A DNA stretch of 23,134 nucleotides. Source: a virus. Shown one piece after another: positions 11,617-21,359 of this stretch. The translations under genes were made by a program, and so were the position numbers. Numbering within the stretch: the first letter of the stretch is position 1; each line of letters begins with the position of its first letter. The notes below the pieces were generated by a model that saw only the letters and a program-made list of their open reading frames with translations, did no database searches and had not been told where the DNA came from. Location of the stretch: positions 1 through 23,134 of IMG/VR virus record IMGVR_UViG_3300021368_000617; one strand, 5' to 3'.

Positions 11617-12240
11617 CTAATCCCACATTGCGCGGGCAATAGTTGGTACTTCATCAGCAAGAATATCACCGATAGATCGGGCAATAGACATATGCTCTCG
11701 TTGAGTACCATTATCACCACGCAGGTCTACATAGTGCAACCAGCTGCGTAATGTACCAGACATATACAATCTGGTGACAGTATTCAATGGTAACACTGCT
11801 CGGGCACACTCTTTAGCAACACCACGGTCAAGCATTGTGTTGTATAGATCCATAGCAGAATTGAAGTGCTGCTCGATTTTGTTGGTAAGCAGCGTCTGAG
11901 ACCAAGTATCTAGGTCATCAATTGAGTTCTGCCTGTTCTTAGTGTCTTGCGTGCGGAGATGCGGCAATGATGTTTCAGTGGCGACGGCATAGCGCTGACT
12001 GAACTCTTGAAAGGAGAAACTCCTGTGTCGGAGTATTTGCGGGCTAATAGCTCTTGTAGTTGTAATCTCGACGCACATACTTGCCATCTCAAAGGGAGAC
12101 CAGTGCTTGTGCTTGATGAGGTATTTGAGGAGTTTTTCAACGTTAGGGTTGTCTTCGTTTGCGGGATTAGAAACTCGGGCGATCTTACCTATTAATTTTT
12201 CAGCGTCAGGTGTAATCCAGATTAATTTCGCTGTATTCAT
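11617..12240 (-). CDS. thyX: flavin-dependent thymidylate synthase ThyX
   Basis: A 207-residue protein with the ThyX signature RHRSFSFQEFSQRY (RHR 71-73, Ser81, Arg83) and the upstream HWSPFE block (46-51). It makes dTMP from dUMP using FAD, NADPH and methylenetetrahydrofolate. The C-terminal LRSWLHYVDLR segment is also typical. Length is normal for phage ThyX. The start overlaps the 34-residue frame upstream (ATGA), placing it in one transcript with the ribonucleotide reductase genes, which supply its substrate pathway. Confidence 0.96.
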   Translation of the reverse strand: MNTAKLIWITPDAEKLIGKIARVSNPANEDNPNVEKLLKYLIKHKHWSPFEMASMCVEITTTRAISPQILRHRSFSFQEFSQRYAVATETSLPHLRTQDTKNRQNSIDDLDTWSQTLLTNKIEQHFNSAMDLYNTMLDRGVAKECARAVLPLNTVTRLYMSGTLRSWLHYVDLRGDNGTQREHMSIARSIGDILADEVPTIARAMWD

Positions 12241-12341: not shown

Positions 12342-12597
12342 TCGCTTTGATTTTGCCATATAACTTCGGTTTAATGCGTCCGTAACCGGACTTAATCGAG
12401 TGAATAGGATTATCTTTCCCTAACTTGTCGTAGTACTCATCAAAGATATCAACCATTGAATAAGCGCGTACGGCATCGAACTGACGCTCACCATCCTTGG
12501 TAAAAGTAATAATATGAACGTCAGTAGGTAATTGAGTGTCGTCAAAGGTATCTGGACAGATACCTTTTTCAACAACTTGAATTTTACTTGTCGGCAT
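12328..12597 (-). CDS. hypothetical protein after nrdB
   Basis: An 89-residue protein. The first half has strands around TDVHIITFTKDGERQFDAVR, followed by the helix YSMVDIFDEYYDKLG and a basic loop (IKSGYGRIKPKLYGKI). It begins through a TAATG overlap with nrdB, so it is translated with the reductase. No family recognised. The position suggests a role in nucleotide supply, but nothing in the sequence proves it. Confidence 0.75.
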   Translation of the reverse strand: MPTSKIQVVEKGICPDTFDDTQLPTDVHIITFTKDGERQFDAVRAYSMVDIFDEYYDKLGKDNPIHSIKSGYGRIKPKLYGKIKANEEE

Positions 12598-13328
12598 TAA
12601 GCGTACTGCGGAAGGTTAACGTTATTAGTTTCAAAGAAAGCAGGCATACGAGAAGCGCGGGTGCTCATAAGCCCCTCTGCCTTGCCTCGGGTGTACAAGC
12701 TATCTGAACTTGCCATCCAGAAGTTTGACGAGAGATGCTTTTGAGTATTCTCCCCTTTGAGGGATTGAAGCACCCAAGCAACCGTAGCTCGCCTAAGCTT
12801 ATTGAGCTCTTTGTCAGACTTAAGTCCGAGCTCTTCACAGACAAGCGTGTTAGCTGCGACGTGAGTTTGTTCGTCTCGGCTGATATCGGCACTCGTGGTG
12901 CGCAGTCCAGTGTCTCCAAGAAAGCGGAAGATCGGCAAGAGCACGAAAAACACGGATCTTTCAAGGACCACAGCCTTGAGGACAGGGTGCCGATCAAGTT
13001 CAAGCCATGCGTTCTTAATTCGCTCAGCTTCTTTCTCAAACCGAACGGGGATTTGATGTGCTTTAGCAGCATAATTTAGTGCAATATCGTGGTTCTCTTC
13101 ATCAATTACATTACTAGCAAGAAGCTCCTTGCAACCTTTGATGTCAGGCAGGTCACCTTTCATAGCGTCTGCAATGAAATCACCTACAGGAATTTCAAGA
13201 CAACGTAAGGCAAGTGCCCGTTGAATGACTTCTTCGCCACCATCCAACAGTGTGCCAGCGGTAACCTCGACAGGTGTCCAGGTACGCTTGCGCTGGTGAA
13301 GGTGGATGTAAGGAGTTTCTGCTTTCAT
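12597..13328 (-). CDS. nrdB: class I ribonucleotide reductase small subunit, tyrosine-less
   Basis: A 243-residue protein, much shorter than typical NrdB (about 320-375). Metal ligands in order: probable Glu45, Glu77-x2-His80 (in DEENH), Glu123 (VLERS) and Glu153-x2-His156 (DEQTH). The residue four after His80, where E. coli NrdB carries the radical Tyr122, is Leu84, so a stable tyrosyl radical cannot form there. Tyrosine-less small subunits have been described for cyanophage RNRs once thought to be class II. It works with the large subunit directly upstream (18-bp gap). Confidence 0.88.
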   Translation of the reverse strand: MKAETPYIHLHQRKRTWTPVEVTAGTLLDGGEEVIQRALALRCLEIPVGDFIADAMKGDLPDIKGCKELLASNVIDEENHDIALNYAAKAHQIPVRFEKEAERIKNAWLELDRHPVLKAVVLERSVFFVLLPIFRFLGDTGLRTTSADISRDEQTHVAANTLVCEELGLKSDKELNKLRRATVAWVLQSLKGENTQKHLSSNFWMASSDSLYTRGKAEGLMSTRASRMPAFFETNNVNLPQYA

Positions 13329-13346
13329 TGGTATAAATAATTGGGT

Positions 13347-14774
13347 TTACTCAGCGCAACCAACGCAGGCTGCTGGGTCATTGAACATATTGATGGGTTC
13401 AGTATCTCCATCGTCAGCGATATCATCAAAACCAAACATAGTTCCGAAGTCGCCGTCCAATGCAGCTAAAGCGTCATCCTTGGCTTGAGTGTTTTGCATT
13501 ACTTGAAGTGAGTAATACAAAGATGTTTGAGGTGAACGCAGCCAACGAGCTACGAACTCATCATCATATTGAACAACGTCACTCCAAGAATTAAAACTAT
13601 AGCCGTGGAATAATTGAGTGCGATGCAGCATCTCACAGATGCCATCAACAACTCTGGTGTAACTGTCCCAGCCAACTTGCTCAGCTGTTTCAACTTCACC
13701 GTAGTCGAAGGTCTCGACACCAAAGGTAGAGCTGTCCCTATCAACAGTGCGCCCGATGGGTGGTGCCAATTCGGGGGCAGTTGTATAGCCTGCTCGGTCT
13801 GTATAACGATAGGAGCAAGAGGCAGTAGGAGCAATTGCAAATGCTCGGTCCATATTGGCTGAACGTGCAATCTTTGCTGCTGCGTCAATTCCTTGTTGAA
13901 GTGCTTTTACAATTTTACGAGCCTCGGGAGTCACGATTGTATCGGTCTCTTCGTACAAATGCTGGTTTAATGCTTCACCAAACTCAGCATACGTAACCCC
14001 TTCCAGCGCAAGGAGATTAGCTAAACCGAGAATACCTAAACCAACTTGGCGATCTTCCTCTTGAGTTAGATATTCACCTGTGCCTTCAACACCAGTTTTA
14101 GCGTGGAGCTCAATCAATTCAGTCATACCAGCGGTAAATGCGCCAAGCAAATCCTCGGGGCGGCAGGCACCCACGTTGATATGCTCTAGCAAACAAGTGC
14201 CGCGACTCCGTAAGAAAACTTCTAAGCAGACATTGCCGTAGATACGCTGGCCGTATTGGTCGTACCTAATTTTTGTTAGCCAGATATCACCACGAGAGAT
14301 ACCTTTAAGGATGGCATCTTTTACGGTGTCGTCTGTTGCGTTCCAGAGCTCTTGGTTGACGTTGATGCAACGCTTTGCCCAGGGGAGTTCATGTCGAGGG
14401 GTGTTAACGAACTCAAGGATGTCTGGGTGGGAAACATCCAGGTGGAGCACAACTGCTCCATTCTTGTAGACGCCGCCTCGTCGGAGTTGCTCGTTAAGAC
14501 AGCTATAGATTTTGCCAAACGAAACAGGCCCCGACGCAACGAGTCCTTTGCCGTTGTCAGTTCCTGCGGCTCTGAGTTTACTGAGATGGACTGCAACGCC
14601 AGCTCCATATCGTAGAGCGTGGCTAACAAATCGCCATGATGCTTCAATTCCATTAGAACCCTCCATACTATCTTCAACAACAAACACGGTGCAGCTCACC
14701 GGTAAACGTGACGTAGGGTCGTCAATCCAGGATTGAACACGACCAGTACGTGCAATAACTTGATTATTTTCCAT
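13347..14774 (-). CDS. nrdA: class I ribonucleotide reductase large subunit, compact form
   Basis: A 475-residue protein that reduces ribonucleotides to deoxyribonucleotides. Active-site residues: Cys28 (VSCTVF), Asn181-x-Cys183-x-Glu185 (GNVCLEV), and Cys204 or Cys194 as second redox cysteine. Tyr420-Tyr421 (SLYYSL) match the radical-transfer tyrosines of class I. The C-terminal CVGC pair (Cys470, Cys473) is the shuttle reduced by thioredoxin or glutaredoxin. It lacks the N-terminal ATP cone and about 200 residues of E. coli NrdA, so dATP inhibition is not expected. Both the tyrosines and the neighbouring nrdB argue for class I rather than B12-dependent class II. The start overlaps mazG by 11 bases. 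Confidence 0.93.
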   Translation of the reverse strand: MENNQVIARTGRVQSWIDDPTSRLPVSCTVFVVEDSMEGSNGIEASWRFVSHALRYGAGVAVHLSKLRAAGTDNGKGLVASGPVSFGKIYSCLNEQLRRGGVYKNGAVVLHLDVSHPDILEFVNTPRHELPWAKRCINVNQELWNATDDTVKDAILKGISRGDIWLTKIRYDQYGQRIYGNVCLEVFLRSRGTCLLEHINVGACRPEDLLGAFTAGMTELIELHAKTGVEGTGEYLTQEEDRQVGLGILGLANLLALEGVTYAEFGEALNQHLYEETDTIVTPEARKIVKALQQGIDAAAKIARSANMDRAFAIAPTASCSYRYTDRAGYTTAPELAPPIGRTVDRDSSTFGVETFDYGEVETAEQVGWDSYTRVVDGICEMLHRTQLFHGYSFNSWSDVVQYDDEFVARWLRSPQTSLYYSLQVMQNTQAKDDALAALDGDFGTMFGFDDIADDGDTEPINMFNDPAACVGCAE

Positions 14775-15201
14775 GAGTATCGTAATGCAGATTGGGCATA
14801 GGAGCGCAGTATGTAAGGTCAGGTTCTACATAATTTGGACCTTTCAAGACTTTGCCATCTGCGCGAAAGATGGGATTGCCGTCATCATCTAGCTTACTCA
14901 TATTTGATTGGAATGTGAGCTCCATAGCTCTATCTAAGTCAATATTTAATGAGGCTGCTTTTTGAAAGCAAACGAATACTAGGTCAGTTAACTCTTTGAC
15001 GAAATCAATGCGCCTATCGTGATTTTCAGGATCGGCGTAAAGTTCATCAGCAGCAAGCATTACTTCGTTGTATTCTTCAGTGATGAGCCTTAGCTGCATC
15101 TCCCAAAGGTCTTTATCGATAATGCCATAACGTGAAATATTGTCGAGACATTTTTGTTGAAAGGTCTCTCGGAAAACCTTTGCTTGTTCTCCTAATGTCA
15201 T
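14764..15201 (-). CDS. mazG: MazG-like nucleotide pyrophosphohydrolase
   Basis: A 145-residue protein from ATG (MTLGEQAKVFRETF). The helices LITEEYNEVM (E-E-x-x-E) and VKELTDLVFVC (E-x-x-D) carry the magnesium-binding acids of the all-alpha MazG fold. The end, SNMSKLDDDGNPIF then GKVLKGPNY, is typical of phage MazG-like proteins. A GTG at 15243 in the same frame overlaps the IF-1 stop and could add 14 residues, but those look unlike the family. Likely hydrolyses nucleoside triphosphates or alarmones; substrate unknown. Directly upstream of nrdA. Confidence 0.88.
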   Translation of the reverse strand: MTLGEQAKVFRETFQQKCLDNISRYGIIDKDLWEMQLRLITEEYNEVMLAADELYADPENHDRRIDFVKELTDLVFVCFQKAASLNIDLDRAMELTFQSNMSKLDDDGNPIFRADGKVLKGPNYVEPDLTYCAPMPNLHYDTHGK

Positions 15202-15239
15202 GTTTAAACTTATGCAGTTATACCAGTTTAGTGTTTTGT

Positions 15240-15467
15240 TCACTTATCGCGAAGGATAATTCGACCTCTATCTAGGTCATACGGAGAAAGTTCAACAGTA
15301 ACTTTATCTCCTACAAGCAGTTGAATTTTGCGAGTGATGAGCTTACCTGAAGCACGGCATAAACATTGATGTCCTTCAGGTTGCTCTAGCTCAACATTGA
15401 AATATCCGTTGCCACTTTCTTTGTAAATTATCCCTTTTGCTTCGATTACGTTGGCCTTTTTACTCAT
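15240..15467 (-). CDS. infA: translation initiation factor IF-1
   Basis: A 75-residue protein that matches bacterial IF-1 along its length: KKANVIEAKGIIY at the start, NVELEQPEGHQCLCRASGKL in the middle, then LLVGDKVTVELSPYDLDRGR close to the C-terminus. The OB-fold core and the SPYDL-x-RGRI block are nearly canonical. The loop after the third strand differs from cellular IF-1 (GHQCLCRASG in place of the usual V-x-AHISG). IF-1 binds the ribosomal A site on 30S and assists IF-2 and IF-3. It sits between a thioredoxin-like gene (ATGA overlap) and mazG, so it is a native part of the operon. Confidence 0.92.
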   Translation of the reverse strand: MSKKANVIEAKGIIYKESGNGYFNVELEQPEGHQCLCRASGKLITRKIQLLVGDKVTVELSPYDLDRGRIILRDK

Positions 15468-15814
15468 TCTGGATGTGCGTATGTGTATGCGTCAAGTGTT
15501 GCGTCAAGGTGCTCGATAATATTATTAGCACCCACAAAGCGTTCTACGCTTTCTTCTTCGAGGTCGCAAATTTCGATACCTTGGTCGTCAATTTGGCAAG
15601 CAACTGTTTCGTGGACGACGACCAATGTCGGTGATAGTTCCACAGAAAGCTCCTCCGCAAGCGCCGTACGCTGGCCAGAGGGTGTTTTAAGAGGTACGAA
15701 GTCAAGCTCTGCCCTCTCGTTATCGGTAAGTACGTTACTGACATGGTTTTTAAGGCGAATGCAGGGAGGACAAGCCTCTTGCGTGAAGACATACAGGTGA
15801 TACTGTTTCATCAT
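15464..15814 (-). CDS. thioredoxin/glutaredoxin-like protein
   Basis: A 116-residue protein with a redox motif C15-P-P-C18 after the strand HLYVFTQEA, and a Ser-Pro62 that suits the cis-proline of the thioredoxin fold, before strand TLVVV. The C-terminal extension is acidic. The start may be the second Met. It could reduce the NrdA C-terminal cysteines, or act as a processivity partner of the T7-like polymerase as E. coli thioredoxin does for T7; both roles are inferred. TAATG overlap upstream and ATGA overlap with infA downstream. Confidence 0.85.
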   Translation of the reverse strand: MMKQYHLYVFTQEACPPCIRLKNHVSNVLTDNERAELDFVPLKTPSGQRTALAEELSVELSPTLVVVHETVACQIDDQGIEICDLEEESVERFVGANNIIEHLDATLDAYTYAHPE

Positions 15815-17372: not shown

Positions 17373-18020
17373 TCAGAACAGCTCCGCAGCTTGAGCGTCA
17401 ACCTCGGTCACATCAGCAACGACTGCTGGTACGCCTGTGAGGATTTCAGAGATGGCAGAGACACAGTCGCGCATAATGCGCTCTTGAGCTTCTTTGTCGC
17501 GGTTACCGCGAGCTTCTGCGAGCATCTCGTAGATTTCGTTGCTCGTCTGCTTGACACCGTTGTTGCGGATAGCAGCAAAGCAAGGCTTCATCTTGGAAGT
17601 ACCTTTCCAAGTGTCGATAGCAATCAATGAAGACAATGCGCCGTTGTCAGCAAGACCCATCAAGCCAGTGATGACACACTGAGACCAGATGGTTTGAAGA
17701 CCAGACGTCAGCATCACAGTGCGACCAGACTGGGTCTCGACAAAGATGTTGAGCTTGGTAGCGTTGAACTCACCAATGCCGTCAGCAACACCAATGCCAG
17801 TCAGCATCACCGGAGCGATGCGAGTGACGGGCTTACCGTTGTCACGGACAAGAGCTTGAGAGTTACCGTCTTCACCTACGTACTGGAAGAAGACAGCTTC
17901 ACTGTCTTTGACAAGACCGATACCAATCATAATATCAACTTGATTGGAAGAACTACCGCCACATTCAGCAACGAGAGCAGCAGTGTCAGCAGTGATATTG
18001 GCAGTAGAAACGAGTGTCAT
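17373..18020 (-). CDS. hypothetical protein with a structured 5' leader
   Basis: A 215-residue protein starting MTLVSTANITADTAALVAEC. A Gly/Ser-rich N-terminal half with many strands (VDIMIGIGLVKD, RIAPVMLTGIGVADG, LNIFVETQSGRTVML) is followed by a helical C-terminal third (IYEMLAEARGNRDKEAQERI), ending AQAAELF. No membrane segment is clear. The open frame extends to 18083 only because the upstream hairpin happens to read as codons, so I use the ATG at 18020. No Shine-Dalgarno sequence is visible. Base use is more G/C-rich than its small neighbours. Function unknown. Confidence 0.8.
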   Translation of the reverse strand: MTLVSTANITADTAALVAECGGSSSNQVDIMIGIGLVKDSEAVFFQYVGEDGNSQALVRDNGKPVTRIAPVMLTGIGVADGIGEFNATKLNIFVETQSGRTVMLTSGLQTIWSQCVITGLMGLADNGALSSLIAIDTWKGTSKMKPCFAAIRNNGVKQTSNEIYEMLAEARGNRDKEAQERIMRDCVSAISEILTGVPAVVADVTEVDAQAAELF

Positions 18021-18087
18021 AAGATTGAAATGTAAATGAACTGCCCGAAGGCACAAAAACCCATAGCCGGCGGTAGCCGGCATTGGT
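18021..18087 (-). promoter_or_regulatory. two-hairpin leader of the 215-residue gene
   Basis: In the minus-strand transcript the stop of the 54-residue gene is followed at once by a hairpin with a GCCGGC/GCCGGC stem and UACC loop, then a GGGTTTTTG run. Next is a second hairpin, UGCC-UUCG-GGCA, a very stable tetraloop form, about 25 bases before the start codon. The first hairpin plus T-run could terminate or slow transcription, or protect a processed 5' end. Confidence 0.5.
18063..18084. repeat. 22-bp hairpin repeat, copy 1
   Basis: Exact match to 18465-18486. The core is GCCGGC, four bases, GCCGGC, so each copy forms a 6-bp all-G/C stem. This copy lies between the 54-residue and 215-residue genes. 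Confidence 0.85.
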
Positions 18088-18527: not shown

Positions 18528-19055
18528 TCAACGACGCATCCGACGACGCATTCCACGGCGCATGGTGCGTTTCGGGGTACGGCGTGAAGGACGGCTGCCG
18601 GGAGCAGACCTTCGTTGAGTGAGTGAACGCTTAGGACGATCAAAAGAAGATTTTTTGGTAGGACGAGATCGTCTGGTCGTTTTGGGTTTCCCTCCAAGGG
18701 ATTTACGCTTACCGAGGTAGTAATCGTTAGAACGTTTAGAGCCTCCTCTATACATCACACGGTCCTTTGAATCGGATGATGACTTTCGACCACGACGTTT
18801 AGATGCTTCAGAGCCACGACGCTCCATCTGTTCAGCACGTTTCGCCATACGCTCAGACCGTGCCTTTTGCTTAGCAGCCTTTGCTTTTAAACGTTCGGCG
18901 CGTTCGGCTTTACCTTTAGAAGCAGCGCGTTCAGAACGACGCGTAGAGCGAGCAGACCGTTTAGCCATGCGTTCAGACCGTGCTTGCTTCTGAGCAGCAG
19001 TCATACGTACACGGCGACGTCCGCCAGATTTACGTTTAATAGGAGTTGCAGCCAT
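18528..19055 (-). CDS. extremely basic, repeat-containing protein (histone-like in composition)
   Basis: A 175-residue protein dominated by Arg, Lys and Ser, with no Trp and almost no hydrophobic core. Two near-identical units lie at about 22-33 and 63-74, sharing the core ARSERMAKR. The first 90 residues suit a charged helix; the middle is Ser/Gly-rich, and the end is an Arg-rich tail (TMRRGMRRRMRR). It should bind nucleic acid strongly, like histone H1-like or packaging/condensing proteins, but no family is recognised. It could condense phage DNA or bind host RNA or DNA. The start ATGGCTGCAACTCC lies 35 bases after the 28-residue membrane peptide gene. Confidence 0.8.
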   Translation of the reverse strand: MAATPIKRKSGGRRRVRMTAAQKQARSERMAKRSARSTRRSERAASKGKAERAERLKAKAAKQKARSERMAKRAEQMERRGSEASKRRGRKSSSDSKDRVMYRGGSKRSNDYYLGKRKSLGGKPKTTRRSRPTKKSSFDRPKRSLTQRRSAPGSRPSRRTPKRTMRRGMRRRMRR

Positions 19056-19179: not shown

Positions 19180-19371
19180 TCACCAGATGCCGGGGATAAT
19201 TTGACCTGTCAATGCGTAAGCGCCCAGCGCGGCAATAACACCGAGCATTGCGAAGCGTCCGTTAAGCATTTCGGCTTTTTCGTTGTGAGTCACGGTAATC
19301 TCCTGTGCGTACATACGGGGTTCTTTAGCGAAGACGTTTTGACGTCCACGGTCTTCAGTGGTAATTGTCAT
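19180..19371 (-). CDS. hli: high-light-inducible protein (Hli)
   Basis: A 63-residue protein with the chlorophyll-binding helix signature EMLNGRFAMLG followed by VIAALGAYALTGQ and the end PGIW. Hli proteins sit in the thylakoid membrane, bind chlorophyll and carotenoid, and protect photosystems; cyanophages carry them with psbA to sustain photosynthesis. Inside the gene a strong Shine-Dalgarno AGGAG (19300-19304) lies six bases before a GTG at 19293, which would give a 37-residue form close to the minimal Hli unit. The ATG at 19371 has no visible ribosome site, so the shorter form may be made instead of, or alongside, the longer one. Confidence 0.93.
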   Translation of the reverse strand: MTITTEDRGRQNVFAKEPRMYAQEITVTHNEKAEMLNGRFAMLGVIAALGAYALTGQIIPGIW

Positions 19372-20282: not shown

Positions 20283-21359
20283 TTAACCGATAGACGGTGC
20301 AATCAAAGCAACGGGTGTTGTATCTGCAGCGGCAAGATCAAGGGGGAAGTTGTGAGCGTTGCGCTCGTGCATTACCTCTAAACCGAGGTTGGCGCGGTTC
20401 AAGACGTCAGCCCAAGTATTGACGACGTGACCTTGGCTTTCAACAATCGATTGATTGAAGTTAAAACCGTTGAGGTTAAAAGCCATAGTAGAAACACCAA
20501 GGCTTGTAAACCAGATACCAAGGACCGGCCACGCAGCGAGGAAGAAGTGCAGGCTACGGCTGTTGTTGAAAGAAGCATATTGGAAAATCAGACGACCGAA
20601 GTAACCGTGAGCGGCAACAATGTTATAAGTCTCTTCTTCTTGACCGAATTTGTAGCCATAGTTTTGGCTAACTTCTTCAGTTGTTTCACGAATAAGCGAA
20701 GAGGTAACGAGGCTGCCGTGCATAGCACTGAACAGCGCACCGCCAAACACTCCAGCAACGCCGAGCATATGGAACGGGTGCATAAGAATGTTGTGCTCTG
20801 CTTGGAACACCAACATAAAGTTGAAAGTGCCCGAGATGCCAAGGGGCATACCATCCGAGAAAGATCCCTGCCCAAATGGGTACACCAGGAATACAGCAGA
20901 AGCAGCAGCAACAGGTGCTGAGTAAGCGACGAAAATCCATGGCCTCATTCCCAGTCGATAGCTGAGTTCCCACTCCCGACCCATGTAGCAGAAGATGCCA
21001 ATGAGGAAGTGAAACACGACCAACTGGTAAGGGCCGCCGTTATAAAGCCATTCGTCCAGCGAACCGGCTTCCCACACTGGGTACAGGTGTAACCCAATTG
21101 CGTTCGAGCTGGGTACCACGGCTCCAGAGATGATGTTGTTGCCCCACATAAGGGAGCCAGAGACAGGTTCTCGGATGCCATCGATATCTACAGGTGGTGC
21201 CGCGACGAACGCGGTGATAAAACAGATAGCTGCAGCAAGCAGCGTCGGGATCATCAGTACGCCGAACCAGCCGACGTACAGACGATTGTTTGTGCTGGTT
21301 ACCCAGTCACAAAAAACATCCCAGTTGGACTGGGACTTAGTTGAAATAGTGGTTTGCAT
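20283..21359 (-). CDS. psbA: photosystem II reaction centre protein D1
   Basis: A 358-residue D1 protein, full length and without intron. It has the family's opening ([15 protein letters not shown]), the five-helix core, and the C-terminal manganese-binding residues in [13 protein letters not shown], followed by a 15-residue extension that D1 processing protease would remove after the Ala. The residue matching position 130 is Glu (GREWEL), the form linked to high-light D1 isoforms in cyanobacteria, rather than Gln. The phage copy replaces the rapidly damaged host D1 in infected thylakoids. It appears to be a unit of its own, with a 108-bp leader upstream and a strong terminator downstream. 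Confidence 0.99.

Follow-up and report, generated by a model that had tools for sequence, protein, structure and literature searches.

The window, a 23 kb stretch (23,134 nucleotides) that constitutes IMG/VR record IMGVR_UViG_3300021368_000617, carries psbA, hli, thyX, nrd and mazG genes together with genes for a VapE-type helicase and PolA, and no tRNA genes were found in it. An ORF for 75 residues, running from position 15467 down to 15240 (ATG...TGA), had been predicted to encode translation initiation factor IF-1, and lies in a nucleotide-metabolism operon that holds no other translation genes. The genes of interest, all on the minus strand, are the following.

20283-21359, minus strand: psbA (photosystem II D1), a cyanophage marker with 77-79% DNA identity to cyanophage psbA
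19180-19371, minus strand: hli (high-light-inducible protein), Pfam Chloroa_b-bind E 1.6e-4, barely above the cut-off
15464-15814, minus strand: thioredoxin-like gene, 116 aa, Pfam Thioredoxin_2 E 1e-4, below the cut-off
15240-15467, minus strand: IF-1 gene, 75 aa (TIGR00008, PF01176, AlphaFold2 model compared with 30S-bound IF1)
14764-15243, minus strand: MazG-like nucleotide pyrophosphohydrolase, PHROG 671 E 1.7e-25, likely true start ATG 15201
13347-14774, minus strand: ribonucleotide reductase large subunit (NrdA), short, 475 aa, PF02867 E 2.1e-21, PHROG 367 E 2.8e-43
12597-13328, minus strand: ribonucleotide reductase small subunit (NrdB), 243 aa, PHROG 6799 (class Ia beta subunit) E 2.8e-101
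11617-12240, minus strand: ThyX, flavin-dependent thymidylate synthase, Pfam Thy1 E 6.2e-46, end of the conserved nucleotide block

The thioredoxin label of the gene upstream of IF-1 is weak, with a Pfam score of 23 bits for a cut-off of 27. According to the original prediction IF-1 overlaps both of its neighbours. This is correct upstream, where the stop of the thioredoxin-like gene and the start of IF-1 share GAATGAG and overlap by 4 bases (ATGA), but doubtful downstream, where an overlap arises only if the mechanical GTG start of mazG is taken. The ATG at 15201, 38 bases past the IF-1 stop, is the likelier start because MazG of the related phages begins with the same MTLG/MSLG. The ribonucleotide reductase pair (12597-14774) is short, at 475 plus 243 aa, and its small subunit is recognised by PHROGs only.

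By profile, predicted fold and tree the product of the ORF was confirmed as a bacterial-type IF-1, as had been claimed. The NCBIfam infA equivalog TIGR00008 scores it at 68 bits (cut-off 61.15), with residues 4-73 aligned to profile positions 1-68, and Pfam eIF-1a (PF01176) at 58.6 bits (E 4.9e-16, cut-off 30.2); the GDKVTVELSPYDL-x-RGRI block pointed out earlier is present. An AlphaFold2 model (pLDDT 87), for which phage and host sequences had been aligned, predicts a five-stranded OB-fold barrel that superposes on 30S-bound IF1, with Z 14.3 over 70 residues (1.4 Å) for E. coli IF1 in 9fco (9fco_I) and Z 13.2 over 71 residues for 1hr0 (1hr0_W). When the model was searched with Foldseek the top ranks were all IF-1. 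The profile search did not place the protein in a non-IF-1 OB-fold family: RsgA_N is a weaker second Pfam match (32.9 bits vs 58.6 for IF-1), and the N-terminal OB domain of RsgA was rejected on this score and on the length of 75 aa without a GTPase domain. Other OB-fold families were ruled out by the Pfam and NCBIfam profiles, Foldseek and the structure alignment, and a chance ORF by the profiles together with the related viral contigs, gene order and dN/dS values described below.

The same IF-1 is encoded by about 60 viral contigs at 72-91% identity, in the common gene order g15954, Trx-like, IF-1, MazG, NrdA, NrdB, ThyX, SSB, VapE. The Trx-like gene lies upstream of IF-1 in 55 of the 61 loci and MazG downstream in 59, and NrdA is found in 60 of them. 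The phage gene is under purifying selection, with a median dN/dS of about 0.095 and a maximum of 0.16 among the 44 pairs whose dS could be measured. So that the census would not be limited to contigs picked by IF-1, the clade was fetched again with an alignment of NrdB as an IF-1-independent probe, which was used in place of a single NrdA protein that had returned only 3 loci in an earlier census. IF-1 was present in 58 of 58 NrdB-fetched contigs that extend 2.5 kb or more upstream of nrdB, although the alignment was drawn from IF-1-bearing loci and a sister clade devoid of IF-1 could be missed by it, as cyanophage S-EIV1 is. The median distance from IF-1 to nrdB in the fetched contigs was 2.1 kb. 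IF-1 is thus a core, syntenic gene of a lineage of marine cyanophages of ~80 kb related to S-EIV1.

The lineage was identified as marine and S-EIV1-related because the terminase of a 106 kb contig (G008) matches that of S-EIV1 with 54.8% identity over 97%, all others being below 25%; the window carries no terminase, and its own assignment is via synteny. This terminase in a long syntenic relative, together with the psbA, hli, thyX and nrd neighbours in the window, bears out the claim that the IF-1 is phage-encoded. The terminase gene and a DUF932/RlpA stretch are each present twice in G008, ~82 kb apart, and the record (IMGVR_UViG_3300050343_000255; L331:1967-3505, L335:4192-5478, L336:4994-6355) resembles an ~82 kb genome that is terminally redundant or permuted. 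S-EIV1 (KJ410740), reportedly the subject of a study by Chenard et al. in 2015, also resembles the present phages in ThyX (53%), PolA (35%) and genome size. In contrast to them it is of freshwater source and has no annotated psbA or nrd genes, and a tblastn search of S-EIV1 for IF-1 gave no match at E 10. The S-EIV1 terminase gene (L338:14080-16620) corresponds to about 846 aa, compared with 512 aa in the marine relative, and matches in two pieces; an insert such as an intein is possible. From psbA, hli, IF-1 itself and the kinship with S-EIV1, picocyanobacteria (Prochlorococcus, Synechococcus and relatives) are the probable hosts.

The nearest cellular proteins to the phage IF-1 are those of Prochlorococcus, Synechococcus and Aphanocapsa feldmannii. 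Picocyanobacteria have a single IF-1: this holds for all 61 genomes of the family and for all 61 sampled from the order, and the protein is 91-100% identical across 61 genomes. Its infA model score is ~65 bits, versus ~125 for nearly all other cyanobacteria listed, and it is 44% identical to the canonical cyanobacterial IF-1, which is itself 69% identical to the E. coli protein. Five picocyanobacterial operons that were read (loci L313-L317) run adk-rpmJ-rpsM-rpsK with infA absent, whereas the order in other cyanobacteria is adk-infA-rpmJ-rpsM. In the copies read, the picocyanobacterial gene is convergent to the thioredoxin reductase gene, trxB (loci L199-L228, L077, L112 and L151 show the divergent form beside trxB). 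Across a whole order of cyanobacteria, IF-1 thus appears to have been exchanged for a divergent form with a viral sister, the most striking result outside the phages themselves; no earlier report of such a swap was found in the literature searched. An extra host paralogue as the source of the phage gene is ruled out by the single IF-1 of picocyanobacteria. Second IF-1 copies occur in three large cyanobacteria, and the one read is of canonical and not picocyanobacterial type.

Phage and picocyanobacterial IF-1 are 57-70% identical (about 62%) and have in common a two-residue insert (VELEQPEGH), the CLCRA loop and a GKL...I.LL.GDKV.VE.SPYDL core. They differ in the N-terminal MSKKAN, found only in the phage protein, in a Gly/Arg-rich C-terminal tail (~18 residues, 5 charges more), found only in the picocyanobacterial one, and in the loop, where the phage Ile-Thr-Arg-Lys-Ile-Gln takes the place of Thr-Lys-Phe-Arg-Ile-Lys. 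With canonical IF-1 (E. coli infA, spc-operon cyanobacterial infA, TIGR00008) the phage protein shares the OB-fold, full-length alignment, the C-terminal SPYDL-RGRI and the final arginine, but the identity is 42-54%, and the phage form has the two-residue insert and has replaced the arginines of the loop facing helix 44 (h44).

The GHQCLCRASG loop, with its two additional cysteines, was thought to be altered in the phage. It is not a phage novelty, because the probable hosts carry the same CLCRA in their sole IF-1, and we therefore discarded the idea of a phage-made Cys loop. One of the two cysteines is also present in Clostridioides IF-1, and the first is lost once among the phage sequences (L056).

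What the earlier reading of the loop missed are traits specific to the phages, namely the absent basic tail and a fixed Gln/His in place of Lys/Arg. The motif LCRASG[KR]L[IV]TRKI[QH]LLVGD is shared by 50 distinct phage IF-1s with no exception. The position of Tth Arg46 is occupied in these by Gln (47 sequences) or His (3), versus Lys or Arg in picocyanobacteria, other cyanobacteria and the other bacteria aligned, and that of Tth Arg41 by Ile or Val in all 50; picocyanobacterial IF-1 has Thr and Lys at the Arg41 and Arg46 positions. The phage protein thus lacks the basic pair in the h44-facing loop, which is a trait of the canonical subgroup and not of the family, the helix 44 contacts being predicted by alignment to known IF1 complexes. 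The basic Gly/Arg/Lys-rich tail is also missing, as the phage proteins end in RDK or REK, except for L041 with a polar tail of 13 residues. The phage IF-1 is accordingly a sister form and no plain copy of the host protein.

As had been proposed, phage and cyanobacterial proteins were searched and a tree was built, in which the phage IF-1 is sister to that of picocyanobacteria (100/99). The two form one clade in both of the trees made (support 100/98 and 100/99), with the phage side and the picocyanobacterial side each monophyletic. A grouping of picocyanobacterial and canonical cyanobacterial IF-1 that leaves out the phages was rejected (p 0.010), while a single clade of all three was not (p 0.249). 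The stem leading to the phage and host clade is very long, about 0.8 changes per site, and the alignment has only ~75 columns, 70 residues being too few to root this clade. Three other viral IF-1s (L061, L062, L070) join the clade with support 98/87, which may be long-branch attraction. The IF-1s of the large viral contigs L061, L062, L064, L070 and L074 (up to 355 kb) share a GSGFFTV turn, and the position of such sequences at the base of the clade (98/87) is possibly due to convergence.

We lean slightly towards acquisition of IF-1 by a phage ancestor from an early picocyanobacterium in whose lineage IF-1 had itself been altered or exchanged. This is in line with the well-supported clade of two monophyletic sides (100/99) and with the non-rejected clade that includes canonical cyanobacterial IF-1 (p 0.249). 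Cyanophage genes such as psbA usually follow the path from host to phage, which also speaks for this direction. It is, however, difficult to reconcile a host IF-1 that is nearly frozen (91-100% in 61 genomes) with a stem of ~0.8 changes per site, and the host gene sits at a new locus beside trxB with infA gone from the old operon in the five genomes read. The opposite course is rather unlikely: the only IF-1 of picocyanobacteria would be viral in origin, introduced into the founder of the order by an ancestral S-EIV1-like phage whose own copy had evolved fast, with the newcomer taking up its place next to trxB and supplanting the infA of the spc operon. If true, a viral translation factor would run initiation in an entire bacterial order that contains the most numerous photosynthetic organisms.

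As to function, the gene, a core component of S-EIV1-related marine cyanophages, probably encodes a working IF-1. During infection this protein would bind the 30S A site together with host IF-2 and IF-3, supplementing or replacing the host factor, and initiation would thereby match the burst of phage mRNA while host transcripts fall. The setting in a nucleotide-metabolism operon, apart from other translation genes, speaks against this reading, and binding to 30S could be weak or altered, because two h44-facing arginines have been lost and at one of these sites the phages carry a non-basic residue absent from host-type IF-1s. We would nevertheless expect the changes in this loop and the absent basic tail to tune affinity or off-rate and not to abolish binding, because C-terminal basic residues stay invariant: R69 and R73 are found in all 50 distinct phage sequences. 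R73 aligns with the C-terminal Arg69 of E. coli IF1, which is reported to be indispensable for binding to 30S (PMC4611024). A phage hand on initiation factors has precedent in the T7 kinase, which phosphorylates IF1, IF2 and IF3 (PMC6375957).

Alternatively, the altered IF-1 might displace that of the host and favour phage mRNAs or start sites. The same fixed residues in the h44-facing loop and the lost tail would also fit an altered kinetic checkpoint, and the fidelity of initiation depends on IF1 together with IF3 (PMC4611024). Such reprogramming seems improbable to us. Shine-Dalgarno signals are weak in the phages with IF-1, but equally so in S-EIV1, where IF-1 is missing, and poorer still in picocyanobacterial contigs, a comparison made on small samples with heuristic ORF calls and ATG starts. 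The idea that IF-1 favours Shine-Dalgarno-poor phage mRNAs thus found no support, and the link to such genes was dropped; the leaders of the phage genes showed no other feature in common.

That the protein works mainly away from the ribosome, with its OB-fold serving as RNA chaperone or antiterminator on phage transcripts, is the least probable reading. E. coli IF1 has side activities of this kind, and the OB-fold, the positive net charge of the phage proteins (mean +3.4), the changed ribosome-facing loop and the early-type nucleotide operon would all be compatible with it. The invariant block is, however, the face that IF-1 presents to the ribosome and no generic OB surface, and the profile scores suit IF-1 and not cold-shock proteins.

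Translation factors are unusual phage cargo, as the original prediction rightly stated. IF1 genes are known in huge phages, including Lak phages, Sinorhizobium phage Phosso and contigs of up to 673 kb (Al-Shayeb et al. 2020, PMC7162821). Like the cyanophage protein these are phage-encoded and presumed to act on host ribosomes, but they belong to jumbo or megaphage genomes, where they occur among many translation genes, and their sequences are unrelated or distant. Phage IF-1 had previously been noted in huge phages only, whereas here it is a fixed, strongly conserved core gene of mid-sized (~80 kb) marine cyanophages. No IF-1 was found in the annotated cyanophage isolates of the collection searched, nor any report of one in cyanophages in the literature searched, although an earlier mention is possible. 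Because the window copy has no tRNA or translation gene nearby, the role of IF-1 can be tested in isolation. An essential translation factor seems to have been swapped between virus and host, and both the swap and its direction are directly testable. The results suggest that a widespread group of marine phages may help run the start of protein synthesis in infected cells of the commonest photosynthetic bacteria.

The infA gene attributed to Acinetobacter phage MD-2021a (L229, CAKLQF020000005.1) was set aside, since its neighbours ansA, truA, leuB and leuD suggest that the stretch is host chromosome. The same is suspected of short unannotated 'phage' records with infA from Listeria, Staphylococcus and Enterococcus. 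Elsewhere in the window, a 175-aa protein without a PHROG match (18528-19055) has an extreme Arg/Lys/Ser content, with a composition like that of histone tails, and a 236-aa protein without a Pfam or PHROG match (17373-18083) is kept in 47 of the 61 related loci.
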